From Clostridia bacterium (GTDB taxonomy: Bacteria > Bacillota > Clostridia > Oscillospirales > Acutalibacteraceae): DNA of 64,000 nt. Numbering within the stretch: the stretch's first letter is position 1; each line of letters opens with the position of its first letter. Below are positions 7,755 to 64,000 of this stretch, one piece after another. The notes beneath the pieces are model-generated. The model made no database searches and was not told where the DNA came from. It worked only from the letters and a program-made list of their open reading frames with translations. The stretch is from assembly GCA_017452785.1 (NCBI GenBank), contig JAFTLT010000057.1, positions 47,693-111,692 on the forward strand, written 5' to 3'. The position numbers and the translations under genes were made by a program.

Positions 7755-7761
7755 AGAAACG

Positions 7762-12773: not shown

Positions 12774-12794
12774 CTTATTGATATTGACAAACAG

Positions 12795-12827: not shown

Positions 12828-12842
12828 TTTTGAAAGGAAGTT

Positions 12843-14786: not shown

Positions 14787-14787
14787 A

Positions 14788-15558: not shown

Positions 15559-15567
15559 AGTTTTTTG

Positions 15568-15591
15568 ATTACTTTTTTACAAAAAAGTAAT
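15568..15591. repeat. Perfect hairpin, part of a dispersed element
   Basis: ATTACTTTTTT and AAAAAAGTAAT form an eleven-base inverted repeat with a two-base loop directly after tatD. The following AAAAAGTAATGCC is shared with the repeat at 20446-20458 in the opposite orientation, so it seems to be a dispersed intergenic element that may also terminate transcription. Confidence 0.5.
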
Positions 15592-15630
15592 GCCTGCCCG
15601 GCGAGGGCAACAAAGGAAATAATAAAAGTG

Positions 15631-15665
15631 CAACCGACAGAGAGCTTTTTCTGTCGGTTGTTTTA
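15631..15665. terminator. Terminator between convergent tatD and prmA
   Basis: CAACCGACAG pairs perfectly with CTGTCGGTTG over a ten-base loop, followed by TTTTAATG on the plus side. It separates the plus-strand metG-tatD operon from the minus-strand prmA. Confidence 0.75.
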
Positions 15666-15720
15666 ATGAAGTTTTACCTCTGTGACACTCTACTCCCCTT
15701 TTCGGCAGAGTACACGCAAT

Positions 15721-16647
15721 TCATAATTTTTTCGTCTCAAAGCAGACCCAACCGCCCTTGGTGTGTCTTGCCACAATTTCAAAGCCGTACTTTGCGAATG
15801 CATCAATAACATCCTGCTCTCTTGTGTCGATAATGCCTGAGGTGATAAAAAGAGCATCGTCCTTCATAAACTTCGCCACATCCTTGCAGAACATAATGAT
15901 AACATCAGCCACAATATTAGCCACAACCACATCATATTTGCCCTCAACCTTATCTGTCAGGTTGCCCTGAAGAATGGTATATTCGGGCTCACGAAGGTTG
16001 TTAACTTCGCCGTTTTCCTGAGCGGTTTTAACGGCAAGTGCGTCAATGTCAACGCCAACTGCCTTTTCGGCACCAAGAAGAAGTGAAGCAATTGAAAGTA
16101 TGCCACTTCCGCAGCCAATATCAAGCACACTGACACCGGGCTTTATGTGCTTTTCAAGAGTTTCAAGGCAAAGGCGTGTTGTTTCGTGGGTACCTGTGCC
16201 AAAAGCAAGACCCGGCTCAATGTTGAGCACCGCCCTGCCCTGAGGGTCATATTCATCTTCCCAAGTAGGTCTTATGAGGAGCTTCTCACCAACGGGAATG
16301 GGGTGAAAATACTGCTTCCAGTTGTTTTCCCAGTCTTCATTTTTGCACTGATTGAGGATAATCTCGCTGTCAATATTTTCGGCAGAGTACCTCTCACGAA
16401 GAAATGCAACAGCCTCCATAGGATTTTCCTCAGGTGAAATGTAGACATGCACAATTGCCTTGCTTCTGTCTTTTTTGAGCAAATCCTCGTCAATAAGGTC
16501 AATGTGAGCTATCTCCCAAGCCTCTTTTTCAAGGTCACGGTAATCTTCAATATAGATGCCGTAGGGTACAACCATTGAGGCTATGTCACCTGCTTTGTCA
16601 ATATCATCTGCGTTAACGCTGATTTTTACTTCTGTCCAATCGCTCAT
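15721..16647 (-). CDS. prmA: Ribosomal protein L11 methyltransferase
   Basis: A 308-residue SAM-dependent methyltransferase that methylates ribosomal protein L11. The SAM-binding core is VLDIGCGSGILSIASLLLGA near residue 176, preceded by GLAFGTGTHETTRLCLE, the PrmA signature, and followed by VVANIVADVI. The N-terminal 100 residues form the substrate-recognition domain. Its ribosome binding site lies within the end of the upstream GH13 gene, two bases away. The stop codon falls in an AATTATGAATTGCG repeat. Confidence 0.95.
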   Translation of the reverse strand: MSDWTEVKISVNADDIDKAGDIASMVVPYGIYIEDYRDLEKEAWEIAHIDLIDEDLLKKDRSKAIVHVYISPEENPMEAVAFLRERYSAENIDSEIILNQCKNEDWENNWKQYFHPIPVGEKLLIRPTWEDEYDPQGRAVLNIEPGLAFGTGTHETTRLCLETLEKHIKPGVSVLDIGCGSGILSIASLLLGAEKAVGVDIDALAVKTAQENGEVNNLREPEYTILQGNLTDKVEGKYDVVVANIVADVIIMFCKDVAKFMKDDALFITSGIIDTREQDVIDAFAKYGFEIVARHTKGGWVCFETKKL

Positions 16648-16648
16648 T

Positions 16649-50295: not shown

Positions 50296-53200
50296 ATGAA
50301 AATCCTTCTGACACTTATCTTTTCATTCTATTCCGTCATAGCCGCTATATTCGGCCTTGACTGGGCTACACCCTATAACCCTGCAGACACACCTGAAAGT
50401 GATTTGCCCTCACAGGTCATTGTGGGCGAGATGCGTATTCAGCTGCTTTCAGACAGCCTTGTCCGTCTTGAGGCTGAAGGTGAAAGAGGCTATGAAAACA
50501 GAAGCTCTTTCACTGTAGAAAAGCGCACAGGCTGGAAAAAAATTGATTTCAGCCAAAAGACCGAAAACGGGTACACGATAATTGAAACAGACTCTTACAG
50601 TGTTTATGTGCCCGAAGATGCCGCTTCATGTGACGGCTGCTATATTCTCAGCTCTGACGGCGATATGCTGTGGGAATTTGAAACTGACACCAACAGCAAT
50701 GTTTATCTCCCCTCACCCTCAGATGAACTCAAAAGCTGGTATTTCACCGACACACCGAGAGTTATCCCCTCAGAGGACGGCTACAGCGTAAGTGCACTGT
50801 GGCATAACCTTAACGGTTGGGATAAGACCAACTATGCTCAGGATGTGTTTGTTTTCCTGCCTCAGGGCAGCTATGAGCAATTTACAAGTGATTTTGTTGA
50901 GCTGACAGGCAGAAGTGAAATGCTCACTCTCAATCTCCTTGGCTATTGGGATTCACGCTATTATGAATACACCGAAGAAACTGCTATGCAGCAGATAAAT
51001 GACTACTATAACAAGGGCTATCCTCTTGATGTGCTTGTTATTGACACGGACTGGCGAGTTGCTACAAGCGGCACAGGCTACAGCATTAACAGAAAGCTGT
51101 TCCCGAATATGAAAAACTTCCTGAGCGATGTGCACGATAAGGGCGTCAGCGTTGTTTTTAATGACCATCCCGAACCTACCTTCGGCACTGACAATCTTCT
51201 TGATAAAAGCGAGATGATTTTCAGAAACTATAACCTTCAGCGTATTCTCAACAAAGGTCTTGACTATTGGTGGTATGACCGTAACTGGTGGACAAGTCTC
51301 AAGCCTGTAGACGAAGAGCTTTCCATTTACACAAGCGGAATGTATGCTTATCAGTGGATAACAAAGGATCATTATGAGGATGAAGCAAAGTGCGGCGAAT
51401 ATGCCCGCAGACCTCTCATAATGGCTAATATTGACGGCATCAACAACGGTGAGCAGGCTTATGCCTCAGAGCTTGCGGCTCACAGATATTCCCTGCAGTG
51501 GACAGGTGATGTCGGTACCTCTGCCGAGGCTCTCAGCGATGAAATATTCAACACGGTTTACGGCAGCAATATAATGGGCATACCCTATATCAGCTCTGAC
51601 CTTGGCGGTCACACCTCAGAAGTAACAGACGATATGTATGTTCGCTGGATTCAGTACGGTGCCCTCTCACCAATTATGCGTGTTCACTGCACAAAGCCTT
51701 ATTCAAGAATGCCTTGGCTTTACGGGGACACTGCCGAAGAGGTTACTCATAATTATGTTGATATGCGTTACCGCTTGCTCCCCCTCTTCTATTCACTCTC
51801 AAGAGAAAACTATGAAACGGGCCTTCCTCTGACAAGAAGACTTGACATTACATATCCTCAGTATGAAGAAGCATCACGCAACGACGAATATCTTTTAGGC
51901 GACAGCATCCTTGTGGCTCCCATATATGAGGGCGACCCTGAAACCACGGATTACACCTTCACAAGTGACGGCAAGCAGGGCCTCAAGGCTGAATACTTCT
52001 CAAACAGCAACTTTGAGGGCACTCCTGAAATTGTTCGCTATGAAGATGAAATCTACTATGATTGGGGTCTTGGCTCACCTGACGGACTTTCAGTTTCCGA
52101 TTACTTTACGGTTCGTTGGTCAGGTACTCTTACAGTGGGCGAAAAAGATATATTCTTCAATGCCTATGCAGATGACGGCATAAGAATTATAGTTGACGGC
52201 GAAACAATCGTTGACGGCTGGGGCACATATAATAAGACATTTATCACAGAGCCTCTCAAGGCAGGCTCAACTCACGATATTACGGTTGAATACTGTGACG
52301 GAAATGAATACGCTCACATTTATCTCACAGCTCACTGCGAGGGTGAAGCAAAGCGTAATATTTTCCTACCTGACGGAATGTGGATGGATGTATGGACAGG
52401 CGAAACCTTCGTCGGCCCCACAACAATAGAAGTTGCACACTCACTTGAAACCTCCCCCATTTTTGTTCGCATGGGCAGCGTGCTCACACTGGCTGACAAC
52501 ATGAAAAACACAAGCGAAAAAGATTGGAGTCATCTGACTCTTGATGTTTATCCCTCAGCCGATTTTAAGGGCGAAGCAATGCTCTATGAGGATGACACTG
52601 AAACAGTGGCATATAAAGACGGTCAGTACCGCAAAACCAATATCACTCTCAGCGGTGACGAAACCCAGGTCCTTACAATTGAAGCTGCAGAAGGCACCTT
52701 CGAGGGCGAGCGAGCATTTACCAAACGAAGCTACACAGTCCGCATACATCAGAGAGCTGATTGGGGCAAGCTTGAAAGGGTAACACTGAACGGCAAAACT
52801 GTTGACTTTAAAGTTATTGCAAAAGACGAAAACGCACAGCCTCTTGCAATTATCGGCGGCGCAAGAGACAACACCGTTTATGAAATCACTTTCACTGCTG
52901 ATGTTTATGAAAAGAGCGTGCTGAAATTTGAATTTGAAAGTGCAGTTAACGACGGCAGAAACAACAGCTATGACGATAGCATGATAGGTATTGAGCTTTC
53001 TGCCAACACTCTCAATAAGGATGCAGCTCACATAGAAATTGACGAAAGCTGCGATGATTTTATCCTTTACGGACTTAACTGGAACTATGACAGCGTAAGC
53101 AAGCAAAGCTCAGATAACTCACTTCAGAATATGTCCTACAGAGGAAATCTTGACATTTTCGATGACAACTACCCCATTTCATGGAAGGACGGAGATATTA

Positions 53201-53490
53201 TCTCAGAGGGCACCACAACTAACGGTATTGTCGGCTATCACGAGCTCACAACCACAATTAAATGTGACGGTGAGGATGAATTCAGATTTTATGTCGGCGG
53301 TCACAAGTCCGTAGCAACCTTCACAGTCCGTGACCGAAGCGGCAACACTGAAACAATATCCTTCGGTAACATTGACGGCAACTATCATAAGGAGGTTGTT
53401 TTAAACACTGTCGGTGACGGCGAGCTTTATGTTTCATACACCCTTCAGTGCGGTCATAATATAGCCGCTGCAGGATGCGTTAAAAACTGA
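50296..53490 (+). CDS. Large GH31 glycoside hydrolase with PA14 domain, probably secreted
   Basis: A 1064-residue enzyme. Residues 1-18 are hydrophobic and look like a signal peptide or anchor. A mutarotase-like domain leads to the GH31 barrel: the likely nucleophile is Asp328 in WWYDRNWW and the acid/base Asp405 in QWTGDVG, followed by ISSDLGGH and RMPWLY. A PA14 carbohydrate-binding domain (about 560-680, EYFSNSNFEGTP ... DDGIRIIVDG) is inserted, then beta-sandwiches. It acts on alpha-glucosidic or alpha-galactosidic chains; the exact specificity is open. Confidence 0.88.
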   Translation: MKILLTLIFSFYSVIAAIFGLDWATPYNPADTPESDLPSQVIVGEMRIQLLSDSLVRLEAEGERGYENRSSFTVEKRTGWKKIDFSQKTENGYTIIETDSYSVYVPEDAASCDGCYILSSDGDMLWEFETDTNSNVYLPSPSDELKSWYFTDTPRVIPSEDGYSVSALWHNLNGWDKTNYAQDVFVFLPQGSYEQFTSDFVELTGRSEMLTLNLLGYWDSRYYEYTEETAMQQINDYYNKGYPLDVLVIDTDWRVATSGTGYSINRKLFPNMKNFLSDVHDKGVSVVFNDHPEPTFGTDNLLDKSEMIFRNYNLQRILNKGLDYWWYDRNWWTSLKPVDEELSIYTSGMYAYQWITKDHYEDEAKCGEYARRPLIMANIDGINNGEQAYASELAAHRYSLQWTGDVGTSAEALSDEIFNTVYGSNIMGIPYISSDLGGHTSEVTDDMYVRWIQYGALSPIMRVHCTKPYSRMPWLYGDTAEEVTHNYVDMRYRLLPLFYSLSRENYETGLPLTRRLDITYPQYEEASRNDEYLLGDSILVAPIYEGDPETTDYTFTSDGKQGLKAEYFSNSNFEGTPEIVRYEDEIYYDWGLGSPDGLSVSDYFTVRWSGTLTVGEKDIFFNAYADDGIRIIVDGETIVDGWGTYNKTFITEPLKAGSTHDITVEYCDGNEYAHIYLTAHCEGEAKRNIFLPDGMWMDVWTGETFVGPTTIEVAHSLETSPIFVRMGSVLTLADNMKNTSEKDWSHLTLDVYPSADFKGEAMLYEDDTETVAYKDGQYRKTNITLSGDETQVLTIEAAEGTFEGERAFTKRSYTVRIHQRADWGKLERVTLNGKTVDFKVIAKDENAQPLAIIGGARDNTVYEITFTADVYEKSVLKFEFESAVNDGRNNSYDDSMIGIELSANTLNKDAAHIEIDESCDDFILYGLNWNYDSVSKQSSDNSLQNMSYRGNLDIFDDNYPISWKDGDIISEGTTTNGIVGYHELTTTIKCDGEDEFRFYVGGHKSVATFTVRDRSGNTETISFGNIDGNYHKEVVLNTVGDGELYVSYTLQCGHNIAAAGCVKN

Positions 53491-53544: not shown

Positions 53545-53679
53545 TTAATCTGTAGCCTCAATAGCCGTGTCAAGCATAGTCTCAGCAAAAATACCGTATC
53601 CCCTTTGCGGGTCATTGATAAGCACATGAGTTACGGCACCAACCAGCATACCGTTCTGAATAATGGGCGAGCCTGACAC
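53545..53679 (-). pseudogene. spoIVB: 3' fragment of the sporulation protease gene spoIVB, split by the mobile element
   Basis: Reading the minus strand, 44 codons are left: [20 protein letters not shown], then [19 protein letters not shown] and a stop. This is the C-terminal end of SpoIVB (peptidase S55), whose active-site serine lies in GMSGSPI. The frame upstream continues through foreign AT-rich sequence to a TAG without a usable start codon. The break falls at the codon before SGSP. SpoIVB triggers sigma-K activation across the forespore membrane; the rest of the gene should be on the far side of the element. Confidence 0.85.
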
Positions 53680-53702
53680 GAGTGTGTCAATATAGGACCA
53701 AC
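53678..53702. repeat. Left end of second element: copy 1 of a 25-base direct repeat
   Basis: ACGAGTGTGTCAATATAGGA, then CCAAC, matches 53834-53858 at 22 of 25 bases. It starts exactly where the spoIVB similarity ends, so it probably is the attachment-site half (attL or attR) recognised by the recombinases. Confidence 0.55.
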
Positions 53703-53826
53703 AAATTTTTTTAGGAAATTTTGATACCTAATTTACCGCAAAACACGCTTAAAATAACCTTTTTTGATTGATTTGAGTGTATTTTAGACTTAAAAAAATA
53801 ATTTTTAAGGCATAATAGGAATTTGA

Positions 53827-53873
53827 AAAACAAACGAGTGTGTGATAATAGGACCAACACTCGTCTGTTTGTT
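53827..53873 (-). terminator. Terminator of the DUF4160/DUF2442-HTH pair
   Basis: On the minus strand ACACTCGT's partner arms AAACAAACAGACGAGTGT and ACACTCGTTTGTTT pair with a small bulge; T residues follow. Between here and 53703 lies AT-rich sequence without a gene. Confidence 0.65.
53834..53858. repeat. Copy 2 of the 25-base direct repeat
   Basis: ACGAGTGTGTGATAATAGGA, then CCAAC, 156 bases inside the element. It overlaps the stem of the terminator for the DUF2442-HTH gene. Confidence 0.55.
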
Positions 53874-54311
53874 TTAAGTGTTTACGGGTTCTCCATACTC
53901 GCGTTTCATTGCATCTATGGAAACAATCCACTGTTTACCAAACTTACAAACATCAACACCATTAATGAGTTTTCCGTAGGTTATCGCTTTACGCAACGTA
54001 CTCTCATTCAGGTTCCATAATAATGTCGCATCGCTAAATGCCATCAGACCATCAAACGGTGTATCTATTGTTTTTCCGTTAGCCCAGAGTTCATCACAGG
54101 AAATGTCGATATCATCATTCCATACAATACCATAGCCGCCCTGATCAACAACCACATCATTAAATAATACAGGCTTTTCTTTAAGCGGAAGAAACATCAT
54201 ATGCTTATCGAACAATTTACTTACATCATAGATTTTTGTAACGCCTTCGGCAAACTGAACACACAGTTTATACTCCGGCAGAACATTGACACACTTGACT
54301 TTATGAAACAT
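53874..54311 (-). CDS. DUF2442 protein with C-terminal helix-turn-helix
   Basis: A 145-residue protein. Residues 1-85 match the DUF2442 pattern (KVKCVNVLPEYKLCVQFAEG ... VWNDDIDISCDELWANG). The C-terminal 55 residues (AFSDATLLWNLNESTLRKAI ... FGKQWIVSIDAMKREYG) look like a helix-turn-helix DNA-binding segment. I start at 54311, with AAGGAGG in front. It is encoded right after a DUF4160 protein; such pairs are often listed as toxin-antitoxin-like. It is the most likely self-repressor of the pair. Confidence 0.72.
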   Translation of the reverse strand: MFHKVKCVNVLPEYKLCVQFAEGVTKIYDVSKLFDKHMMFLPLKEKPVLFNDVVVDQGGYGIVWNDDIDISCDELWANGKTIDTPFDGLMAFSDATLLWNLNESTLRKAITYGKLINGVDVCKFGKQWIVSIDAMKREYGEPVNT

Positions 54312-54322
54312 ATATAACCTCC

Positions 54323-54577
54323 TTATTCCAAAGGACTCAAAGCTGTGAACTCCTGCGTTTCCCAAATATTTAAGAGAGCTTCCTTGTGGATTTTATTCCA
54401 TTCCAAAACCATTTCCAAAGCTTTCTGTGGAAGATATCCCTCCAGGATCTTACCGTCCTTTATACTAACTGCCGCCACATGCTCCCCGTAGATAGCATGA
54501 AAATGAGGCGGGTTGTGTTCTGATTGCTGAAAATACATACGGATTATGATTCCGTAAAACCTTGATAATACCGGCAT
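54323..54577 (-). CDS. DUF4160-family protein
   Basis: An 84-residue protein with the DUF4160 pattern: GIIIRMYFQQSEHNPPHFHA, then YGEHVAAVSIKDG and LPQKALEMVLEW. The HNPPHFHA histidines could bind a metal. It is the first gene of a pair with the DUF2442-HTH gene, eleven bases apart. Its promoter bears an overlapping palindrome. It may be the toxin-like partner, but no activity is known to me. Confidence 0.78.
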   Translation of the reverse strand: MPVLSRFYGIIIRMYFQQSEHNPPHFHAIYGEHVAAVSIKDGKILEGYLPQKALEMVLEWNKIHKEALLNIWETQEFTALSPLE

Positions 54578-54594
54578 TTGTCTTCTCCTTTCAT

Positions 54595-54623
54595 ATTATA
54601 TCACGATACCGTGATATTGTCAA
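54595..54623 (-). promoter_or_regulatory. Consensus promoter with palindromic operator for the DUF4160/DUF2442 pair
   Basis: TTGACA (54623-54618) and TATAAT (54600-54595) stand exactly 17 bases apart on the minus strand. The spacer is almost filled by the palindrome ATATCACG-ATAC-CGTGATAT (54598-54617), so a bound repressor would block polymerase. This supports autoregulation, as in toxin-antitoxin modules. Confidence 0.8.
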
Positions 54624-54689
54624 TGTCATTATATGTCTTACTGGTTACAATATTTCTTCAAAGTCAAGTATTGTCATAAACCAAATTGA

Positions 54690-56300
54690 TCAGACTGCTT
54701 CATAGTCTACATAGCTTGGCACCTCAATAATTTTTGCAATTTCATCTGTGAAATTCCACTCTATGCGGATAGAACCATCCTGCTTTACTATAATTCTTTT
54801 AATCAGTTCCTTAGTCAACTCCGGTGTCAACTTGTCAATCTGGTTATATCGAATAAAAGGATCCGTTTCGTCTATATTGTTTATGCTAAGCCTCATTTTT
54901 TCGCGAACATCTTTCATCTTATTCTCAGATACTGATAATTCAAGTTTGAGCTGTTCTGTGGCTAAAGACACCTTCTTCTTTTGTGCAATATATTCTTCCT
55001 TTGTAATTTTCATTTCAACGTAATCTTCGTAAAGACTCATTTTGGATTCTTCAAGCTGTGACAGCCTCTGTCGCATAGTCCGAATTTCTCCGGATAGGAT
55101 TTGTTCACTTGATTTTGCCATATTACTGTTTTCTCGGAGTCTCTTTATTTTTATATCAAGAATCTGACATTGCATCATTACAGCTCTTAGAACAATTTTT
55201 TCAAGAAGCTCTTCCGAAATTCGCACGTCAGAACAACCGATTGATGATGAGTAACGATGTGAAGTACACATCCAGTGTTTGTTCTGCTTTTTGCCCTTTG
55301 TCAACTTATTGCCACAACATTCACAGACCAACAAGGATGAGAAAGGATTATTGTGCGAAACACCTTTTGTTTTCTTTGTGGATTTTATCACCAACCTGGC
55401 CTGATAGTATAGTTCACGAGAAATAATTGCCTCATGGGTGTTCGGAATAATGGTTTGTTCTTCCTCTGGAATCTGCTTAACACGATTGCTACCAACTCTT
55501 ACAACATGAGATTTAAAAGGAACCGTATCCCCAGTGTAGATTCTGTTAGCAAGAATATTTCGAACTGATTCGAACGTCCAAAACTCCCTTGTCTTATACT
55601 TTCCCCTAACAGGTGCAAGGTAAACTGATGGCGTTTTAATGCCGAGGTCATTAAGTTTTCGTGCTATTTCTGTAATTGTTTTTCCGGATGCGGCCCATTC
55701 AAAAATATTCTTCACGACATCGGATACAATTTGATCAATTACGATGGTGTTTTTCTTTTCACCTTTCTTGTATCCGTAAGGTGCGGTGCCATAAACGTAT
55801 TCACCGTTCATCTTTTTTAAATCGACAGCGCTTTTTATCTTCTTTGATAAATCCTTACTATATAGTTGATTGATGAGGTTATGAATGGCAAGTTCAAGTC
55901 CGGCTGTGCTTTCACCATATTCATTACTATCATAATTATCGTTTATTGAGATAAATCTGATATCGTATGCAGGAAACACAAATTCAAGATAGTGACCTGC
56001 CTCAAGATAATTGCGAGCAAAACGTGACAAATCGCGTACAATAATTGTGCGTACTCGGCCCGCTTCAACAAGTCTTAGCATTCTCTTCATACCCGGTCTA
56101 TCCATTGAGGTACCGGAGAAACCATCATCGACTATCTCCTCAAACGTGGACGGATCAAATCCTTTCCTTCGCAGGTACTGCTCGATACATTTGCGTTGTG
56201 AACCAATACTGCAGCTTTCTTCAATCGCTCCTGATTCTACGTCGCCATCCTCTTTGGATAGTCTAAGATAGTTAATATCAATTTTTTCATTAAACAGCAT
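54690..56300 (-). CDS. Large serine recombinase, third of three
   Basis: A 536-residue large serine recombinase. The nucleophile is Ser15 in INYLRLSKEDGD; VRDLSRFARNYLEAGHYLE carries active-site residues. The recombinase domain is followed by a zinc ribbon (CECCGNKLTKG ... CTSHRYSSSIGC) and a coiled coil. It overlaps the preceding recombinase gene by eleven bases, so the three are made from one transcript. The element end lies about 1 kb downstream, in spoIVB. Confidence 0.92.
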   Translation of the reverse strand: MLFNEKIDINYLRLSKEDGDVESGAIEESCSIGSQRKCIEQYLRRKGFDPSTFEEIVDDGFSGTSMDRPGMKRMLRLVEAGRVRTIIVRDLSRFARNYLEAGHYLEFVFPAYDIRFISINDNYDSNEYGESTAGLELAIHNLINQLYSKDLSKKIKSAVDLKKMNGEYVYGTAPYGYKKGEKKNTIVIDQIVSDVVKNIFEWAASGKTITEIARKLNDLGIKTPSVYLAPVRGKYKTREFWTFESVRNILANRIYTGDTVPFKSHVVRVGSNRVKQIPEEEQTIIPNTHEAIISRELYYQARLVIKSTKKTKGVSHNNPFSSLLVCECCGNKLTKGKKQNKHWMCTSHRYSSSIGCSDVRISEELLEKIVLRAVMMQCQILDIKIKRLRENSNMAKSSEQILSGEIRTMRQRLSQLEESKMSLYEDYVEMKITKEEYIAQKKKVSLATEQLKLELSVSENKMKDVREKMRLSINNIDETDPFIRYNQIDKLTPELTKELIKRIIVKQDGSIRIEWNFTDEIAKIIEVPSYVDYEAV

Positions 56301-57996
56301 CCTTCATCACCCCGATTTCTTCGAGATAACCTAGCAATTCCTTAAAAGGATCGGCATAATTTAAAATGATTTTAATTTCTTTATTACCAGATACATATAT
56401 CTTATCAATCAGCAGTTCAACAATTTCTCGGTCAATGGCCGGAAGCTTGTGAAACCTTTTTATGGATTGAATCCATTTCGATGAAGATACGATAGCCATA
56501 TCCAGTTTCTTTATCTCGCTGAAGGTTCTGGATTCATCAAGAAGGATTGCATCGTATTGCGCGCTGTACTTTGCCTTCATCTGGCTGTATTCTTCTCTAT
56601 CAATGATGCGGTCAGTAAGATCTACAAGAAGTTGCTCGATTTTTGATTCCATATTCTTTCGTTTTGTACGGATTTCTATCAGCTTCTTCTCGTGTCCAGC
56701 AAGATGTCCGGATATATAGGGATTGGATTTAATCTCATCAATAAACTGTTCCATATCAATTGCGAGACGCACCTGTTGTTCAAGAAGTTTTTCAACCTTC
56801 TCCAGTATTAACGTCTGATTGACATAATGATTGCTGCACTTGATATGCTGTGAATCAATATACATACGGCAATTGTAATAAACGCGGCTGGGAAGTTTTG
56901 AAGTTGGTCTTGCGCATCCTTTTTGACCAATAAGTCGAGACCCACAATCCATACAATAGAGCTTATCTCTAAATATATCTCGGCTGTCTGTTTTGACCGG
57001 AGCTCGCTCATCAAAGTTTGCTCTTTTTTTCTCTTCTTCAGCGATGATCATCTGAACTGAATCAAACAATTCCTGCGTGATAATAGCGGGGTGTGCATTA
57101 GAAATGATGATCCATTCATCCTCAGATCTACGCTTCTTTTCTAAGCCAACCTTATCACGTTTCACTCGACCGTGAATCCTATTTCCAAGATAAACGATAT
57201 CCGACAGTATCTTTCTGACCGTTTTCCTAACCCAAATTGCATTTTCATACTTGGGATTAACCGTAATCCCTCGAATATATCTCAGTTTACCCGGGGACGG
57301 AATTCCTTCAAGATTCAAAGACTTACAAATAGCATTGATACTTTGACCGGATGATTTCATTTCGAATATACGTTTTACTACCGGTGCCGCAACTTTATCA
57401 ATGTCAAATGTGTTTGATTCAGGATTTCGGAGGTAACCATACGGAATACTGCCTGACGATGGTAGATAACAACCGTCATCAATTTTTGCGTTGATGCTGC
57501 CTCGAATTTTACGCGAGATATCCTTAACGTAATAATCGTTCATTACCATCTTTAAAGGTAAGGTAAGCGCAGTGCTATCTGCCTCTTCATTAGAACTGTC
57601 ATAATCGTCATTAACGCTTATAAGTCTTACATTCATTTCAGGGAAAATACTTTCAACATATTCGCTTGTTAAGATAAAATGACGACCAAGTCTGGAGATG
57701 TCCTTAATAATGACACAGTTGATCAAACCTGAACCAAGATCATTTATCATACGCTTAAAATCCGGCCTGTTGTAGTTCATTCCAGTGTATCCGTTGTCAG
57801 AATAGAAGCCAACAACCTTAATTTCAGGATGATCTTTTAGAAAATCCAACACGATCTTCTTTTGATTGCCGATAGAATTTTGTTCCTCATCATCTCCGTC
57901 TTCCACAGACAATCTGGAATAGATACCGCAAAGACATTCAAAGTTCGTAATTACTGTGGATTGATGCATATTATTAAATCGACTTTTCCGAGCCAT
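56290..57996 (-). CDS. Large serine recombinase, second of three
   Basis: A 568-residue large serine recombinase. The catalytic Ser30 stands in GIYSRLSVEDGD; VIIKDISRLGRHFILTSEYV follows. A zinc ribbon is seen at CMDCGSRLIGQKG ... CRMYIDSQHIKC, then the coiled coil. The start codon overlaps the stop of the first recombinase (TAATG). All three differ clearly in sequence, so they probably form a heteromeric integrase and excisase rather than recent duplicates. Confidence 0.92.
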   Translation of the reverse strand: MARKSRFNNMHQSTVITNFECLCGIYSRLSVEDGDDEEQNSIGNQKKIVLDFLKDHPEIKVVGFYSDNGYTGMNYNRPDFKRMINDLGSGLINCVIIKDISRLGRHFILTSEYVESIFPEMNVRLISVNDDYDSSNEEADSTALTLPLKMVMNDYYVKDISRKIRGSINAKIDDGCYLPSSGSIPYGYLRNPESNTFDIDKVAAPVVKRIFEMKSSGQSINAICKSLNLEGIPSPGKLRYIRGITVNPKYENAIWVRKTVRKILSDIVYLGNRIHGRVKRDKVGLEKKRRSEDEWIIISNAHPAIITQELFDSVQMIIAEEEKKRANFDERAPVKTDSRDIFRDKLYCMDCGSRLIGQKGCARPTSKLPSRVYYNCRMYIDSQHIKCSNHYVNQTLILEKVEKLLEQQVRLAIDMEQFIDEIKSNPYISGHLAGHEKKLIEIRTKRKNMESKIEQLLVDLTDRIIDREEYSQMKAKYSAQYDAILLDESRTFSEIKKLDMAIVSSSKWIQSIKRFHKLPAIDREIVELLIDKIYVSGNKEIKIILNYADPFKELLGYLEEIGVMKDAV

Positions 57997-59654
57997 TATC
58001 CCACCTCCTTTGTTTTTTCCTCTATGAGTTCATAGATATACTCCAACTCATTTCTGTAGTTGAACTCAATTTTTACACGTTTGTCCTCATACACGTATAC
58101 TTTATCTATTAGAGTTACAACAAGCTCTCGCGTGAGCTCAGTGACACCTTGGAACCTTTTAAATTCCTGTATCCAATCCGTATTGATTGAGGAAATTTCT
58201 TGCTCCTTGGCATACTCTTCGCGAAGACGACAAAGCGCTGCTTCCTCTGCTTCAAGTTGAGTTGTATATTTCTGGCGCATTTTATCATATTCTTCACGGT
58301 TAATAAGGTTATCGTTATATGCTTCATAAAGATTCATCCTCATATCTTTGCATCTATCGATATCCTTCATTTTCTGTGAGATAAGAACATCAATTCTTTG
58401 GAGTTTGGCATCCTCCAATATACCATGTCCAACCTCATTTAAAAGCTCGTCTAATTCTATAACAAGCTTTATTTGATTAGTGATCGCATTCATAACAACG
58501 CCTTCTAATCGGCTTTGCTCGAAATTGTGAATGGTACACGTTTTTCTATTTTTAAAGGATGAGCAGACATAATAATAAAACTTCTTTTCACTGCGGGTCA
58601 CAGTACGTAGTACCATTGCTCTCTCGCAATCCGCGCAGTACAATACACCCGCAAGTGGATTAACAGTCTTGCTGTTTGGCGACCGTCGCGTATCACGCTC
58701 AAGTAATCTACCAACAATGTAGAAAACGAGCGGGTCTACAATTGCAGGATGATTGTTTTGAACAACTATCCAGTCATCTTCATCACGATATTTCATTTTT
58801 TTAATTTTATAATTTGCTGTACCACGCTTTCCTTGAACAAGAGTTCCAATATATAGCGGGTTTGTCAAAATTCTTGTGACAGCAACAGCGCTCCATTTAT
58901 ATTTGGAAGTGCCCTTAAAACCACTTTTATAACTAAGCCCGATACTTTTTTTGTATTCTGCAGGCGGTAAGATTTGCTCGGAATTTAAGAAATCAGCAAT
59001 GCCGTTTTGACTATAGCCTCGTATTTTGAGCGAAAAAATCCCCTTTACAACCTCTGCAGCATATTCGTCAACCACAAGTTTGTGTTTATCCTCATCAGAC
59101 TTTATATAACCGTAGCTTGCAAAATTACCAATAAATTCACCATTACTACGTTGAATTCGAAATTGTTTACGTAAATTCTTGGAAAGCAAACGGCAATACG
59201 ATTCATTCATAATATTCTTGATAGGGATGATAATGTCATCCGAATGTTTGCTATTACTGCTATCCACATCATCATTGATAGCGATGAATCGAATTCCTAA
59301 TGATGGGAAAATCTCTTCAAGATATCTACCCATCTGAATATATTCTCTTCCAAGTCGAGAAAGATCTTTAACAATGACGCAATTTACCTTTTTTTGCTCT
59401 ATTGCGTCCATAACAGCACAAAAACCGGGACGATTAAAATTCGTTCCGGTATATCCATCATCATCTGCCTCAGCAACCAACTTGATGTTGGGATGTTTCT
59501 CCAAAAAGGCAGAAATCAACTTACGCTGATTGGCAATACTATCGCTCTCATTCTTACCTTTATCATCTTTGGATAAACGGTAGTAAGCGATAGCATAATA
59601 TTCAATTTTATCCTTCAGCATTGCCAAAGAATTAAGCGTATCAAGTACCTTCAT
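57996..59654 (-). CDS. Large serine recombinase, first of three
   Basis: A 552-residue large serine recombinase with catalytic Ser28 in AIAYYRLSKDDKG and VIVKDLSRLGREYIQMGRYL. The zinc ribbon is CADCERAMVLRT ... CSSFKNRKTC. A GGAGG site precedes the ATG. Three consecutive genes of this kind are the hallmark of so-called triple-serine-recombinase integrative elements in Firmicutes. Confidence 0.92.
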   Translation of the reverse strand: MKVLDTLNSLAMLKDKIEYYAIAYYRLSKDDKGKNESDSIANQRKLISAFLEKHPNIKLVAEADDDGYTGTNFNRPGFCAVMDAIEQKKVNCVIVKDLSRLGREYIQMGRYLEEIFPSLGIRFIAINDDVDSSNSKHSDDIIIPIKNIMNESYCRLLSKNLRKQFRIQRSNGEFIGNFASYGYIKSDEDKHKLVVDEYAAEVVKGIFSLKIRGYSQNGIADFLNSEQILPPAEYKKSIGLSYKSGFKGTSKYKWSAVAVTRILTNPLYIGTLVQGKRGTANYKIKKMKYRDEDDWIVVQNNHPAIVDPLVFYIVGRLLERDTRRSPNSKTVNPLAGVLYCADCERAMVLRTVTRSEKKFYYYVCSSFKNRKTCTIHNFEQSRLEGVVMNAITNQIKLVIELDELLNEVGHGILEDAKLQRIDVLISQKMKDIDRCKDMRMNLYEAYNDNLINREEYDKMRQKYTTQLEAEEAALCRLREEYAKEQEISSINTDWIQEFKRFQGVTELTRELVVTLIDKVYVYEDKRVKIEFNYRNELEYIYELIEEKTKEVG

Positions 59655-59784
59655 GAAACATACCTCCTAAAATTCTTCAGGAAATCTGTTTCCGGTGCTT
59701 ATCTTTTTATGGCCGACCAAGCCATATCATTGACCACTTATATTATCTGCGTTTAAGAACTCTATGTCAATAACTCCACCGGCA

Positions 59785-60033
59785 TTACCACAAATTACCT
59801 GAACCCTTGTCAATGTTACTTGCATATGAAAGAAGCCTTTCACGCAGGCTCACCTGGGTATCAGCATACCCGATTTCAACAACAACGCCGTTATCCAAAT
59901 AACAGTAGGGATTACCGATTTGCTTAACATAGTTCCTTACTCTATCATTACACGGCTGAGAAGTATCAATTACAACATCATTTATATCTTTAAGCAGAGA
60001 ACGGTCTGCATTTTGGGCAGTAATTTTCTCCAT
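59785..60033 (-). CDS. Small element-associated protein, family uncertain
   Basis: An 82-residue protein (MEKITAQNADRSLLKDINDV ... NDRVRNYVKQIGNPYCYLDN ... SLRERLLSYASNIDKG). I have seen similar small proteins next to recombinases in Firmicute conjugative elements (possibly the DUF6870 family), but no function is known. AAGGAG precedes the ATG. It is 130 bases before the recombinase genes and may belong to their operon. Confidence 0.6.
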   Translation of the reverse strand: MEKITAQNADRSLLKDINDVVIDTSQPCNDRVRNYVKQIGNPYCYLDNGVVVEIGYADTQVSLRERLLSYASNIDKGSGNLW

Positions 60034-60442
60034 AAATAACTCCTTTCAACTACATTTCAATTATTACCAAAATTTCGATTTGCTATTCAGCAAGTATTTT
60101 AACGTCCACCCGGCGCCTGCAGCTAACAGGTCCATAGGAATCTCACCTTCCCGCCTTCATTATGGCCGGACCGCGAATTACGGAAGTATCATTATCCCAA
60201 ATTCGCGTCATGGCGTAATGCAGGAGCTACCCGCATATTATTACTCTTGGTTCTGTTTGCCACTCAGACGGATAGGCGCTCGGCGAAAATGGAAAGTACC
60301 GGTTCTGGACTATTTATTTTTCAAGGTGCAATAAAAACATAGGGATGCTTTCATAAGGTAAAAACACATAAAAAATCGCAAATATAGTCAGTCCGGCAAA
60401 TTTTTTAAAAAAAAGACTCCGGATTTCTCCGGAGCCTCTTTC
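60034..60442 (-). other. 409-base non-coding stretch with strong dyads; candidate structured RNA or regulatory region
   Basis: No convincing gene is present. CGCGAATT (60172-60179) and AATTCGCG (60200-60207) form a perfect eight-base-pair stem with a 20-base loop. GGCCGG-type and TGCGGGTAGC/GCTCCTGCA pairings flank it. A tiny minus-strand frame, MDLLAAGAGWTLKYLLNSKS plus KFW, with GGTGAG before it, lies at 60062-60133. Its base composition is higher in GC than nearby intergenic DNA. Confidence 0.4.
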
Positions 60443-60634
60443 TCAGATATTAAATTTACTGATCTTGAGGGCAATTCGCATGAGTATGTACTGATGTAAA
60501 TCCTCATCATATTTGCCGTTGATATAGCAATGATGCTCAATAAGCGGTGCATACAAATCAATTATCTTCTCAAAATCATCATGATTACCCGCAACAGCGC
60601 CTTGTAAGGTAATTCGGAATAAATCCCTATCCAT
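60443..60634 (-). CDS. Tn916-like helix-turn-helix protein (ORF8 type)
   Basis: A 63-residue protein, MDRDLFRITLQGAVAGNHDD through DLYAPLIEHHCYINGK, matching the helix-turn-helix domain of conjugative transposon ORF8-like proteins, which pair with the ORF7 sigma-like factor. I start at the ATG at 60634 with AAAGGTGG in front. It overlaps the end of the sigma-like gene by eight bases, so the two are coupled. Confidence 0.75.
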   Translation of the reverse strand: MDRDLFRITLQGAVAGNHDDFEKIIDLYAPLIEHHCYINGKYDEDLHQYILMRIALKISKFNI

Positions 60635-61055
60635 TATCATCACCACCTTTGGACATCTTTTTGCGAAGATGCTTCAGTCCTTTTTGCTTTTGGTCCGAAA
60701 CATACTGAGCAGAGCAGTGTAGTTTCTTCGCGATTTCCCCCACTGTCAGTTCGTCCACGTAAAGGAACTTTAGGATTTGTTGCCTCATCAACGGTAATTC
60801 CGCATAGGCTGTTGCGAGCCGCTCTTCCTCAAAATTAAAGTCATTTTCTTGATATAAGAGCTGACGCATCCATACATCCTCAGTGATGGGGATATTCTCC
60901 TCGAACAGTTCTTCCAAGGACACAATATCAATCGGAATCTCTGTTTTTCGGAGATAATTAAGCTTTGCACGCCGTATAAGCGTGTCGAGCCATGCGGTAA
61001 ATCTCGCACGAAGCTCGTCTCGATCAGAATCGTTTTGTCGGTAGTCCAAATACAT
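60627..61055 (-). CDS. Sigma-70-like regulator (Tn916 ORF7 type)
   Basis: A 142-residue protein. The C-terminal half has LPLMRQQILKFLYVDELTVG and KKLHCSAQYVSDQKQKGLKH, a sigma region 4 helix-turn-helix; the N-terminal half resembles region 2. Tn916 ORF7 and relatives are such sigma-like factors that help switch on transfer genes. The ATG at 61055 has AGAGGAGG in front. It probably controls recombination or conjugation of this element. Confidence 0.82.
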   Translation of the reverse strand: MYLDYRQNDSDRDELRARFTAWLDTLIRRAKLNYLRKTEIPIDIVSLEELFEENIPITEDVWMRQLLYQENDFNFEEERLATAYAELPLMRQQILKFLYVDELTVGEIAKKLHCSAQYVSDQKQKGLKHLRKKMSKGGDDNG

Positions 61056-61170
61056 GCCTCCTCTTGGGCATGCCACCGAGCAAAACCATATATACAACAT
61101 GCCACAGTGGCATGCCGTGAATTAATTTGATGTTCATCTGCGATCACAGCACTTAGAACATGGGTCTCAC
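61056..61170 (-). promoter_or_regulatory. Leader of the sigma-like gene with repeated GGCATGCCAC dyads
   Basis: GGCATGCCAC, TGTGGCATG and GGTGGCATGCC occur within 60 bases before the start codon, so at least two alternative hairpins can form; one contains the ribosome binding region. Upstream, GGAGGTGAGACCC precedes ATG TTC TAA, a two-codon frame. This looks like a regulated leader, but the mechanism is open. Confidence 0.5.
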
Positions 61171-61192
61171 CTCCCTCCGTCATGACAATAAA

Positions 61193-61232
61193 AAATCGGC
61201 TGCACAATGATAAAACACCGTACAACCGATTT
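61193..61232 (-). terminator. Terminator between the XRE gene and the sigma-like gene
   Basis: AAATCGGTTGTAC pairs with GTGCAGCCGATTT (one mismatch) and TTTATTG follows on the minus strand. It could end the XRE transcript or attenuate transcription into the sigma-like gene. A wider AAAAAGAACC/GGTTCTTTTT dyad lies at 61249-61307. Confidence 0.7.
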
Positions 61233-61343
61233 AAAAAATGCAAAAAGAACCCCTTGAATATATCAATAGTCATCTGTATCCTTTTGAGTTCATTTAGGTT
61301 CTTTTTATTATTAAATTATTCTCCTTGTTGAGCTTTTCATATT

Positions 61344-61679
61344 TTACTCTCCAAACTTTTCCAAAGTATCCAAATATGTAATAAGTCCTTCACATGCCTT
61401 AATTCTTTTCTTCAAATGATATTTTTCAATTCTTTCAAGAACTTCCTTTAGAAATACTTTTTCCGGAGAAGCATAACTGGTACTAAGCAGCTGGTCAACC
61501 GTTACTTCTAAGGAATTCGCTATTCTTACCGTCATTTCCAGACTCGGTATGCCACGTGCGTTTTCGATCTGTCCGATATGACTGTTTGTACAATCACACA
61601 TCACCGCCAGATCCTCTTGTCGGAGTCCTTTCATATGCCGATATTTTCTAATGTTTTTGCCAAGGGTTATGTAGTCCAC
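61344..61679 (-). CDS. XRE-family transcription regulator
   Basis: A 111-residue regulator. The helix-turn-helix is LGKNIRKYRHMKGLRQEDLA, then HIGQIENARGIPSLEMTVRI (residues 6-55). The C-terminal part may dimerise. The start is GTG, eleven bases behind AGAAGGAG. In integrative elements such a protein often keeps the transfer genes silent, and its place next to the sigma-like gene fits that. Confidence 0.85.
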   Translation of the reverse strand: MDYITLGKNIRKYRHMKGLRQEDLAVMCDCTNSHIGQIENARGIPSLEMTVRIANSLEVTVDQLLSTSYASPEKVFLKEVLERIEKYHLKKRIKACEGLITYLDTLEKFGE

Positions 61680-61706
61680 TGTTTCATCTTCTCCTTCTAG
61701 TTTTAT

Positions 61707-61762
61707 TATAGTGGAAAGTCGAGTTTAACGGAAGAAAGCATAATTCCACTACTCGCACTATA
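61707..61762 (-). promoter_or_regulatory. XRE promoter region with nested dyads
   Basis: A TATAAT box is present at 61707-61702 on the minus strand. TATAGTG (61707-61713) is mirrored by CACTATA (61756-61762), and GTGGAA (61711-61716) by TTCCAC (61744-61749). These could be binding sites for the XRE protein. No good -35 box is seen. Confidence 0.45.
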
Positions 61763-61799
61763 AGTTTGTTTATCACAATTTTCTTTGATTTCTATCAAG

Positions 61800-61837
61800 A
61801 AAAATAGAAAAAGCCTGACGCAAAGTGCATCAGGCTT
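61800..61837 (-). terminator. Terminator of the second partition pair
   Basis: AAGCCTGATGCA pairs with TGCGTCAGGCTT (one mismatch), followed by TTTTCTATTTTT on the minus strand. Confidence 0.85.
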
Positions 61838-61851
61838 ACTATAAATTCATT

Positions 61852-62211
61852 TCATCCAAACAGATCAAGGTTATCCAGCATTGTTACAACATCTTTTTCG
61901 AGCGTCTCTGTTGCTTTCTCAGCTTTCGGGGTGGCAGTTCCCGAAAGCTGAAGCAACGCCATCTTTTCCTCGATGATGGTCCTAACGATTTGCTCCACCC
62001 TGTCTTGACTAAAATTGGATCCAACCTTAACCTCTATCTTACAATAAGGAGATTGAAGTTCCGGATGTGTAATCATATACTCATTAAGCGCTGCAATTAT
62101 GACTGCGCTTTTCTTATTGCCTAGGCGTTCCAGCAGTTCACCAGCTTGATATTCTTCGTCAGTTTGTGAACCGAACTGTAGTGTGTATCTATATTTACCG
62201 TCTTTTTTCAC
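61852..62211 (-). CDS. ParR/StbB-like partner of the second actin-like protein
   Basis: A 119-residue protein: MKKDGKYRYTLQFGSQTDEE, then AGELLERLGNKKSAVIIAAL, a ribbon-helix-helix-like N-terminal part, followed by a helical region and an acidic tail ending LDNLDLFG. I choose the GTG at 62211 because GGTGGAGG stands eight bases before it. It directly follows the ParM-like gene, as in the other element, so it is probably the DNA-binding adaptor. Confidence 0.65.
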   Translation of the reverse strand: MKKDGKYRYTLQFGSQTDEEYQAGELLERLGNKKSAVIIAALNEYMITHPELQSPYCKIEVKVGSNFSQDRVEQIVRTIIEEKMALLQLSGTATPKAEKATETLEKDVVTMLDNLDLFG

Positions 62212-62228
62212 AGAGCATCCCTCCACCC

Positions 62229-63146
62229 TTATGCATTGGGGCGGAGCATCTGCGTTCTACCGAGCATCTCATAACCCACGGCATTAGCATTCGGGGAGTC
62301 CACGAAGCTTCCTCTCATAACCATAGGAGAATCCTCAAGGAACGGGCGAAGTAAAATGCTACCACCACCGACGAAGATCGCCGGGTTTGATCTGAGATCA
62401 ACCTGTAATTCACGAAGTTGGTTCAGAATGTTACTTGCGTGCTGTTTAGTGGCACTCGTAATAGTTTCAACGACATCTGCTGGCAAACCGATATCTTTTC
62501 CGCATAATACATCACTGATATGCTCATCTTCAAGAAGCATATCGTGATAAGAATTGACTTTGCGAATGATTTCGTTATTCATTGTGATGACGCCGGACTC
62601 AAGACTTCTACAGAACTGAAAGTCCAATTTACCGTTCTTAAGCAGAAGCACGTCGGTTGTGTATCCGCCGATGTCAACAATAAAGATACGCGGTGTGTTG
62701 ACGATCAAGCTACTCTGCGGTACTACCGCTGCGTATGCTTGCGGGAACACCATAACCTTGTCGATCATTATACTATAAGGTCTATCCTTATAGATAAAAT
62801 TGATAGGACCGTCCTTTTTGAAGTAGTTGGCAAACTTATTTTTAAGCACTCCGTAGTGTTCAGGAGGAAGACCAACAGCAAGTTGGATCTGTTCGAACGG
62901 CATATTCCTACCAGCTGTCTCCAACTCTTTAGCAATTGCGATGAGGGTTAGGATGAAATATCTCTCATCGTTGGTCTTATCTTTCATATAGCTTAGTCGC
63001 TTTCCCGCAAGAGTCCAGAACTTGCCTCCGATTTCCAAAACCTCATCGGTCATGGGTGGTTTCACCGTATGCTCGGCAAGTCCGGCTACGAAAGAATGGT
63101 TCACGGTTTTAATGGCAAAATTGCCATGGTCGATTGCGATTAACAT
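62229..63146 (-). CDS. ParM/StbA-like actin-family partition protein of the second element
   Basis: A 305-residue actin-like ATPase. The phosphate-1 loop is IAIDHGNFAIKTVNH (residues 3-17), phosphate-2 is FIVDIGGYTTDVLLL near 155, and the adenosine loop FVGGGSILLRPFL near 260. It shares the domain order of the copy at 1949 but only low sequence similarity, so the two elements acquired different versions. GGAGG precedes the ATG. Confidence 0.87.
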   Translation of the reverse strand: MLIAIDHGNFAIKTVNHSFVAGLAEHTVKPPMTDEVLEIGGKFWTLAGKRLSYMKDKTNDERYFILTLIAIAKELETAGRNMPFEQIQLAVGLPPEHYGVLKNKFANYFKKDGPINFIYKDRPYSIMIDKVMVFPQAYAAVVPQSSLIVNTPRIFIVDIGGYTTDVLLLKNGKLDFQFCRSLESGVITMNNEIIRKVNSYHDMLLEDEHISDVLCGKDIGLPADVVETITSATKQHASNILNQLRELQVDLRSNPAIFVGGGSILLRPFLEDSPMVMRGSFVDSPNANAVGYEMLGRTQMLRPNA

Positions 63147-63198
63147 TATTGATTACCTCCAGGTTTTTATTTGTACATCTAAATTACACGATTCATTG

Positions 63199-63221
63199 TG
63201 AGTATTTACAACAGGAATACT
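63199..63221. promoter_or_regulatory. Palindrome upstream of the second partition operon
   Basis: GAGTATT and AATACTC stand nine bases apart, some 55 bases before the ParM-like start. It may be an operator or part of a centromere-like site bound by the partner protein. No repeated iterons were seen nearby. Confidence 0.4.
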
Positions 63222-63245
63222 CATAAACCGTAAAAAAGCGCACAG

Positions 63246-63275
63246 AAAAAGGGTGAAGCAAAATTTGCTCCACCC
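63246..63275 (-). terminator. Terminator of the DUF3854 gene
   Basis: GGGTGGAGCAAA pairs with TTTGCTTCACCC (one mismatch) and is followed by TTTTTCTG on the minus strand. Confidence 0.85.
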
Positions 63276-63288
63276 AATTCTGTTACTG

Positions 63289-64000
63289 TTACTGTGAACG
63301 CTTTCTTTGGAAGCAGCACTCCCAAATATAGTCGTCCAGACCTTTATACGTTGGATCCCACACATAGGTTCCGTATCGAAAACCCATATTTCCCAACAAA
63401 TCGAGCAAACTGTTATATCCATTCTGCACGTGATGGTTAATAGCAAAATCCATATCAAAGGCAGTTTTGATCTCTACCAAGCCCTCGCGACGTAGCTCTG
63501 TCAGAGTAAGCTCTAACTGAGTAAGAGTGTTTACGCCGGGAACAGCCAGTACCGTCATTCCGGTGAGTGCATTGATTACGTCCGCCTTCATCGGTCCCTC
63601 AGTCAGTACCAAAGTCGGTCTGACAGAACCAACGAGATGCGTCCATCCCTCAGCACGACATCCGTCTTCCTGGTCTGTACTGGAAATCCAACGAAACTTT
63701 CTCTTTGTTACATTGTCGCGTCGGACCTGTAGGCCCTGTATTCTGCCAAGGTGATCACGAACTGGTATCAGGATGCCGCGTTTCTCGTGGATAAAACACC
63801 ACGAACCGCTTGTGTCTCGATAGAACCCCGGTACACCTGCCAAATAATGTCCTTCCGAACGAAGTTGCTTTGCGAGAGCACTCATACCGATAACCGGAGT
63901 TGTTTTATAACCCAGTCTCTCGATATCTGCATCGGTAAGTCCACGGTTAAGCAGGTTTTCTCTGTGATCTGCAGCAAGGGACAGCTTAGAGAGCAATGCG
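63289..64000 (-). CDS. DUF3854/TOPRIM-like protein, cut by the window edge
   Basis: At least 237 residues, open at the right edge so the true N-terminus is outside the window. The visible part has RGILIPVRDHLGRIQGLQVR, then TLVLTEGPMKADVINAL, FDMDFAINHHVQNG and YKGLDDYIW, the DUF3854 pattern related to the TOPRIM fold of primases and replication proteins (acidic EG and DMD motifs). It may help replication of the excised element. It precedes the partition genes. Confidence 0.75.
   Translation of the reverse strand, partial: ALLSKLSLAADHRENLLNRGLTDADIERLGYKTTPVIGMSALAKQLRSEGHYLAGVPGFYRDTSGSWCFIHEKRGILIPVRDHLGRIQGLQVRRDNVTKRKFRWISSTDQEDGCRAEGWTHLVGSVRPTLVLTEGPMKADVINALTGMTVLAVPGVNTLTQLELTLTELRREGLVEIKTAFDMDFAINHHVQNGYNSLLDLLGNMGFRYGTYVWDPTYKGLDDYIWECCFQRKRSQ

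Follow-up and report, generated by a model that had tools for sequence, protein, structure and literature searches.

Several mobile elements that carry a recombinase gene are known from inside sporulation genes. Like the element described here, skin (in sigK), SPbeta (spsM), vfbin (spoVFB) and yin (yabG) all interrupt such a gene, and their recombinases are of the serine type where they are described (PMC10747680; PMC4191935). In the available parts of these sources the four are prophage-like, with one recombinase each, and lie in mother-cell genes where this is stated. The interrupted sporulation genes discussed there and in the account of gin are mother-cell genes (PMC4191935; PMC5595907; PMC10747680). 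The gin element in gerE of B. cereus resembles the present one in being no phage, in encoding three serine recombinases and in splitting a sporulation gene; its precise excision restores gerE, as joining the halves in silico restores the spoIVB frame here (PMC5595907). As described in the same source, gin differs in having no conjugation genes, in excising specifically during sporulation from a mother-cell gene and in using a 9 bp core (TG here); its recombinases do not stand in a row, and girC, which lies apart, does the work together with GirX (PMC5595907).

The triplet-serine-integrase ICEs of Streptococcus form direct repeats of 2–8 bp, and their integrases group by position in the triplet (Ambroset et al., 2016; PMC4701971). 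According to the part of that account available, they share with the present element three serine integrases in a row in the orientation of the target gene, orthologues that keep their position in the triplet and a disrupted target; they carry a conjugation module, of which VirB4-type and VirD4-type genes were found here, and the direct repeat of 2 bp found here falls within their range. Their targets are mutT, traG and hsdM, whereas here it is the catalytic Ser region of spoIVB, and no mention was found in that part of the account of arrays of displaced 3' ends such as those described below (PMC4701971).

Unlike the skin-type elements, the one in spoIVB is very probably an ICE, and the gene that it interrupts is active in the forespore in the species studied. 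SCC elements use serine recombinases, occupy a fixed site in a conserved gene and form composite elements. The rows of displaced spoIVB 3' ends resemble such SCC accretion (compare the available part of PMC5595907). The present elements differ from SCC in their triplet of different integrases, in a site inside the catalytic motif rather than near the gene end and in that no triplet homologue was found between displaced spoIVB ends (12 loci, L036-L047). An earlier note on this DNA had suggested that a triple-serine-recombinase element in spoIVB would be a fresh variation on the theme of skin; with gin, an element of three serine recombinases in a sporulation gene was already known (PMC5595907, as far as available). 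As far as our searches go, what is new is the target spoIVB and a group of ICEs and derivatives specialised on it; among the open-licence papers listed, no title or opening of an abstract describes an element in spoIVB.

The split spoIVB gene and its insert

Numbering refers to the window, the whole 64,000-nt stretch of DNA that was analysed, which is the end of contig C48. The host genome (G000) is a draft of 2.44 Mb in 74 contigs and is 89.8% complete. The features are as follows.

53545..53676, minus strand: spoIVB 3' part, 43 codons and stop, catalytic Ser codon TCA first
53677..53678, minus strand: crossover dinucleotide TG (attL), common to both junctions
C36:20792-20793 (contig C36, same genome): TG of the other junction, matching the attL TG
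53677..64000, no strand: left 10.3 kb of the ICE, contig end at 64000
C36:1-20793: right 20.8 kb of the ICE
53677..53703, minus strand: element left arm TGTTGGTCCTATATTGACACACTCGTG; the same or a related sequence precedes displaced spoIVB 3' ends in other genera
53833..53859, minus strand: second, subterminal arm motif, about 155 bp in from the left end; G327 and G114 have it as well
53874..54365, minus strand: DUF2442 and HTH_59 protein (domain search)
54323..54577, minus strand: DUF4160 protein (domain search)
54690..56300, minus strand: serine integrase R1, external in the triplet (Resolvase, Recombinase, Zn_ribbon_recom; G249 orthologue 54%)
56290..57996, minus strand: serine integrase R2, middle (domain search, G249 match)
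57996..59654, minus strand: serine integrase R3, internal (domain search, G249 match)
59742..59770, minus strand: sigma-A type promoter TTGACA-17-GATAAT upstream of the triplet
59785..60033, minus strand: DUF6870 small protein, candidate accessory factor
60627..61100, minus strand: sigma-70 region 4 protein (domain search)
62229..63146, minus strand: actin-like (ALP/MreB-like) protein (domain search)
63289..63996, minus strand: DUF3854 protein at the contig end (domain search)

The 3' part of spoIVB reads SGSPIIQNG... on the minus strand from 53676 to a stop codon ending at 53545 and matches positions 175-210 of PF05580, the last 36 of the SpoIVB peptidase family (E 1.6e-16). The earlier note had given the remnant as the last 44 codons at 53545..53702. 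The 3' end is indeed present, with 43 codons and a stop at 53545-53676; the V preceding SGSP in this frame is encoded by element DNA, 53677-53678 being the crossover TG and 53679-53702 belonging to the element. The change to foreign DNA right before SGSP was thus placed correctly by that note, and the three serine recombinases that it saw close by occupy 54690-59654.

The 5' part, which the earlier note had suggested looking for next to the other end of the element, stands on C36 at the far end of the foreign DNA. The segment C36:20792-21295 matches PF05580 positions 2-175 (E 3e-57), and its frame of 358 codons ends in ...GGIVQGM before running into element DNA with a stop. With both halves and the element arms located, the proposal of a mobile element in spoIVB at the active-site Ser region is upheld. 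When the halves were joined in silico, GM-SGSP was in frame and the gene was unbroken over 401 residues. Over 372 residues the joined protein has 82% identity with the intact SpoIVB of the congener G005. Against the same gene, dN/dS was 0.12 (0.13 for the 5' part and 0.06 for the 3' part), a strong constraint by which the insertion is recent on that scale.

A second complete spoIVB, which would have spoken against the earlier note, was looked for with PF05580 and was not found in this 89.8% complete genome. Contig C66 also carries the spoIVB 5' part; it was rejected as an alternative arrangement and assigned to assembly redundancy, since it lies wholly inside C36 at 99.985% identity. The genes downstream of the break are syntenic with those of G005 at 81-95%, after one extra gene. 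A 1064-residue protein that resembles glycosidases is encoded at 50296-53490, convergent to spoIVB; this gene is absent behind spoIVB in G005, where the following genes are syntenic.

The Ser after GM was taken to be the catalytic residue of SpoIVB. The solved SpoIVB chain 9lnf aligns GMAGAP at GM-SGSP, with Ala where the catalytic Ser is expected, and S378A variants are described as made for structure work in the available parts of the sources (PMC12502668; PMC6581720).

The dinucleotide TG is the only sequence common to both junctions and falls in the Met codon that precedes the codon of the catalytic Ser. The junction on the C36 side reads GGGTA-TG followed by TGAGTGTGTTATAATAGGACCAACA, and that on the window side TGTTGGTCCTATATTGACACACTCG-TG followed by TCAGGC. 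Set around the TG, the element ends form an imperfect inverted repeat in G000 (21/26 positions), G249 (21/26) and G151 (18/26; all three are raw counts without a shuffled control), as expected for the attP of a serine integrase. A conserved stretch of about 120 bp between the subterminal motif and the left arm is common to six left ends. Neither this genome nor IMG/VR showed a circular form or an unoccupied site; in IMG/VR, two pattern scans for the circular form or the right junction returned 0 contigs.

The insert was seen over 31 kb, the left 10.3 kb in the window and the right 20.8 kb on C36, with the middle unassembled; the matching arms suggest that the junctions on C48 and C36 are the ends of one element. 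R1-R3 are adjacent, lie in one orientation and each carry Resolvase, Recombinase and zinc-ribbon domains. A short frame resembling the DUF6870 gene was recognised by eye upstream of the triplet in G249 as well. The C36 part encodes VirD4-type, VirB4-type, PrgI and NlpC/P60 conjugation proteins, as well as a long protein rich in repeats that continues beyond the start of the contig. No relaxase was seen in the 10.3 + 20.8 kb of the element, the middle of which is missing from the assembly. The insert fits the ICEs with a triplet of serine integrases. Outside it, another serine recombinase, distantly similar to R2 (25%), is encoded on the plus strand at window 7855-9384.

Recurrence at the same codon

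PF05580 was searched in 35 genomes of the genus (G000 included) and in 398 genomes drawn from the family. Matches were obtained in 31 of the 35 and in 329 of the 398; the gene is full-length in 29 of the 35, so the intact spoIVB that the earlier note had proposed to seek in related genomes does exist. Re-examination covered 29 family genomes (25 with several matches and four with a single weak match) and G014 from the genus set, G000 having been seen earlier. Breaks or displaced 3' ends at the same spoIVB codon, with related arms, were found in 24 genomes of 16 genera (23 of them belonging to the 398, G014 coming from the genus draw). Weak 3'-end fragments (G071, G109, G331) and contig-edge fragments without a break at position 175 (G094, G143, G188, G193) were left out of this count.

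Eighteen of the 24 carriers have an intact spoIVB together with displaced 3' ends; in the other six no intact copy was found. The former, with full-length spoIVB and the left arm before 3' fragments, are G014, G164, G218, G230, G108, G082, G320, G368, G159, G350, G285, G185, G114, G314, G200, G256, G223 and G142; the left arms have diverged in G164 and G350, and an internal stop interrupts the 3' fragments of G223 and G142. Among the latter, G000, G249 and G151 have both halves of spoIVB with the left and right arms. In G416 the right arm adjoins the 5' half, in G327 the left arm adjoins the 3' half, and in G171 a left-arm-like sequence accompanies a degenerate 3' part. A DNA pattern of the left arm plus the SGSP codons (at most one mismatch) matched 15 sites in 11 of the 398 genomes, all at spoIVB 3' ends; the reversed control pattern gave 0 matches in the 398. 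With related insertions at the same codon in many related bacteria, spoIVB looks like a shared landing site.

At E<=1e-120, R1 was matched in two of the 398 family genomes, G000 and G249, both with a split spoIVB (at most three candidates were scored per genome). In G249 all three integrase genes, in unchanged order, lie 1 kb from the 3' part of spoIVB, and the best matches of R1, R2 and R3 are the members at the same triplet position (654, 614 and 722 bits; a comparison of scores, not of a tree). Of the six genomes in which no intact copy was found, two thus show the triplet beside spoIVB. In G151, G327, G171 and G416, whose contigs break near the junction, no triplet was found; at E<=1e-60, R3 had no match in G151, G327 or G171 and a single distant match with a stop in G416. 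G249 has 16 R3 matches at E<=1e-60 (contigs C65, C84, C79, C92, C90 and C60), with further neighbouring serine recombinases on C65 and C84.

The left-arm pattern was also found in 14 IMG/VR contigs, of which three have a spoIVB 3' part; all three have adjoining triplet integrases, the stored stretch of one showing two. The other 11 have no spoIVB 3' part and were discarded as chance matches. A search of IMG/VR with one R1 gave four contigs, three with a spoIVB 3' part. An alignment of four R1 sequences gave 44, the single-R1 contigs included, and 20 of these have R1 at 50% identity or above. Read by eye, the left arm leads into a spoIVB 3' part in eight of the 20, which represent about five kinds of element, L128/L133 and L153-L155 being close kin; the other 12 end or stay in element DNA, where no other target gene was recognised by eye. 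No spoIVB 3' part was present in the 24 more distant R1 contigs or in L078. A scan of GTDB species genomes gave a single distant integrase (41%) with no adjoining spoIVB 3' part.

L128 and L133, which by name come from different metagenomes, have 0 mismatches in 6586 bp through the TG and then differ at 23 of 71 exon positions. Similarly, L153 and L154 have 18 mismatches in 3726 bases and then differ at 28 of 100; L155 is more diverged. Since the identity of L128 and L133 extends up to the TG and gives way there to diverged exons, these sequences are most simply read as one element that recently entered before different spoIVB 3' ends at the same bond in different hosts; less simply, such pairs could be the ends of one array. 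The contigs with triplet integrases and a spoIVB 3' part (L128, L133, L136/L156, L153-L155, L165 and L166) are filed as viral in IMG/VR; from their kinship to the window element they may be conjugative elements. L152, which belongs to the 20, ends in right-arm-like sequence and 16 bases, a very short stretch that is possibly the spoIVB 5' side in the opposite orientation. On L168, arm-like repeats lie between R1 and the contig end (5502-5808), with no spoIVB part within these 307 bp.

It is very probable that a triplet-integrase ICE entered spoIVB by one crossover at the TG in the Met codon before the catalytic Ser. This is argued by both junctions, the near-symmetric site, the conjugation genes, the same-order integrases of an independent element and the occurrence of one element before two different 3' ends. 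The integrases would recognise the DNA of the conserved GM|SGSP motif, attB being the conserved coding sequence for GM-SGSP, which would explain a broad host range. For practical use, these conserved codons provide a ready-made attachment site together with its natural integrases.

Integrase expression and rival explanations

Sites similar to the sigma-A type promoter at 59742..59770 lie upstream of the triplet in G249, L128 and L157, so that four of five elements including G000 have one, roughly 90-120 bp from the triplet start; none was found in the scanned stretch of L156. A loose promoter scan of the 551 bases before the triplet gave one site (mean 1.7 in shuffles), whereas a strict sigma-A match occurs twice in the left 10.3 kb (0.04 in shuffles). 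Because the loose scan does not exceed the shuffles, the case for the promoter rests on the strict match and on its recurrence in other elements. Sporulation-sigma consensus sites were absent from the five upstream stretches, and in the left 10.3 kb two were found (1.96 expected in shuffles; B. subtilis consensus). From this promoter, integrase expression looks vegetative.

While the ICE is integrated, SpoIVB would end before the catalytic Ser. In B. subtilis a spoIVB null mutant is blocked in the formation of mature spores (PMC11392383, available part), and by analogy the spores of the present host would be incomplete. The gene would be restored only in cells or lineages that lose the ICE precisely, and excision would be an ordinary vegetative event tied to conjugation, with transfer by few growing cells and spoIVB off in the rest.

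The earlier note had considered a developmental switch like skin, in which the element leaves spoIVB at a set stage of sporulation and the gene is restored. The precise junctions would restore the frame, and elements of this kind exist in sigK, spsM, spoVFB, gerE and yabG (PMC10747680 and PMC5595907, as far as available); the congener G012 has a split sigK-like gene. A vegetative integrase promoter is compatible with such excision, since in SPbeta and skinCd only the directionality factor is described as being under sporulation control (PMC5595907, available part). Furthermore, SigE/SigK-type matches at E<1e-70 occur in five of the six genomes in which no intact spoIVB was found, names that are tentative as none of the nine genomes tested reaches the curated cut-off of the model. 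Against this stand the sigma-A type promoters in G000, G249, L128 and L157, the number of sporulation-sigma sites, which is no greater than in shuffles, and the cell in which spoIVB acts. In B. subtilis and C. difficile it is a forespore gene made under sigma-G, which speaks against excision in the mother cell (PMC11392383, available part). If the same is true here, timely restoration would remove the element from the genome of the future spore. A programmed switch in spoIVB is for these reasons distinctly improbable.

Simple loss of sporulation, with the insertion as one of several decays in the host line, was weighed on the sporulation genes that remain and appears unlikely, if somewhat less so than the switch. 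In its favour, no SigE/SigK match at E 1e-30 was found in this genome, whereas 33 of the 35 genus genomes have at least one, G000 and G017 being the exceptions. G000 is, however, only 89.8% complete, and its assembly also lacks SpoIIGA and a sugar kinase, the neighbours of sigE in the nearest relative, which makes a missing contig likelier than a loss of SigE/SigK. Moreover, G000 retains SpoIVA and what we take, from its resemblance, to be a SigG-like sigma factor, and both of its spoIVB halves are unbroken frames. G249 (99% complete) and G151 (93%) also have a split spoIVB, yet SpoIVA and SigE/SigK-type factors are present; SpoIVA was found in all nine genomes tested, including the six without an intact spoIVB. 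As to a chimera, in which the assembler would have joined foreign DNA to spoIVB, the draft is in 74 contigs, one of them redundant, but independent genomes from several genera, and contigs of IMG/VR as well, have a junction at exactly this base, flanked by identical or related arms. An artefact was therefore rejected, its probability being negligible.

In G012 the sigK-like halves lie about 16.5 kb apart on one contig (L144 = G012:C28:38501-58000, about 1113-18272) with two serine-recombinase-like frames between them, as judged by eye, which amounts to a skin-like element in the genus. Partial sigK-like matches occur in G019, G020 and G025. In G218, which also has a row of displaced spoIVB ends, the halves of a sigK-like gene lie on two contigs (C65:7790-8134 and C8:128-478).

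Intact spoIVB with displaced 3' ends

Behind the intact spoIVB, on its own contig and strand, G218 and G230 each have three displaced 3' ends and G108 has two, separated by cargo genes. The four fragments of G164 are on a different contig from its intact spoIVB; one is short and another has a decayed arm. When 15 displaced ends of nine genomes were translated, 14 were found to terminate at roughly the normal length, and the remaining one, from G230, has a frameshift. Homologues of R1-R3 were absent from the 12 displaced-end loci (tblastn at E<=1e-6; phmmer on ORFs); outside these, locus L052 of G171 has a distant one (27%).

A sample of 44 proteins was chosen from the 128 ORFs between displaced ends. 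The families assigned (25 of 39 shown) include AraC-type regulators (four proteins), dehydrogenases, transporters, other metabolic enzymes and leucine-rich and collagen repeats; one of the 44 proteins matches a PADLOC defence model. To see whether the last displaced 3' end is the native one, synteny with congeners was sought for 13 segments of five genomes with displaced ends; one segment gave a weak match (42% over 83 residues) to the downstream gene of a congener, too little to trace the origin of the 3' end in use. Among 28 congeners, the downstream side matched in 75 of 351 pairs (27 loci) and the upstream side in 108 of 300 (25 loci), a weak difference in a comparison with unequal flank lengths from which loci with short flanks were dropped, and no argument for a more variable downstream side is based on it.

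We favour the explanation that small derivatives of the element carry a new spoIVB 3' end with them; they would be moved by the integrases of the ICE. In carriers with an intact gene the incoming DNA would have brought a replacement 3' end, and the cost of disruption would explain why most carriers (18/24) have an intact gene and one or more displaced 3' ends. More tentatively, and as a possibility that we regard as somewhat doubtful, spoIVB might be a platform for exchangeable 3'-exon cassettes. Units of 3' end, cargo and left arm would move at GM|SGSP with triplet integrases supplied by the ICE, so that SpoIVB remains complete as its last 40-odd residues and the cargo change, while a full ICE would switch the gene off and sporulation would select cured spores. 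If so, and given that spoIVB acts in the forespore, completion of a spore would need a cell that has lost the ICE, the reverse of skin.

On the reading of spoIVB as a shared landing site, a gene needed to finish spores where it has been studied would be a repeated target of conjugative elements across the family, and horizontal gene transfer would be coupled to sporulation, a matter of importance to anaerobes that disperse in spore form. The spoIVB elements also bear on the idea that intervening elements survive in mother-cell genes because excision affects a cell that is going to die, so that the element is retained in the spore; they are a natural set whose target gene presumably works in the opposite compartment, the forespore. 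Finding spoIVB disrupted in a draft genome is not sufficient reason to class the organism as a non-spore-former. Right behind the displaced spoIVB 3' end of L133, a further serine recombinase is encoded at 6843-7873 and possibly belongs to a second element in tandem.
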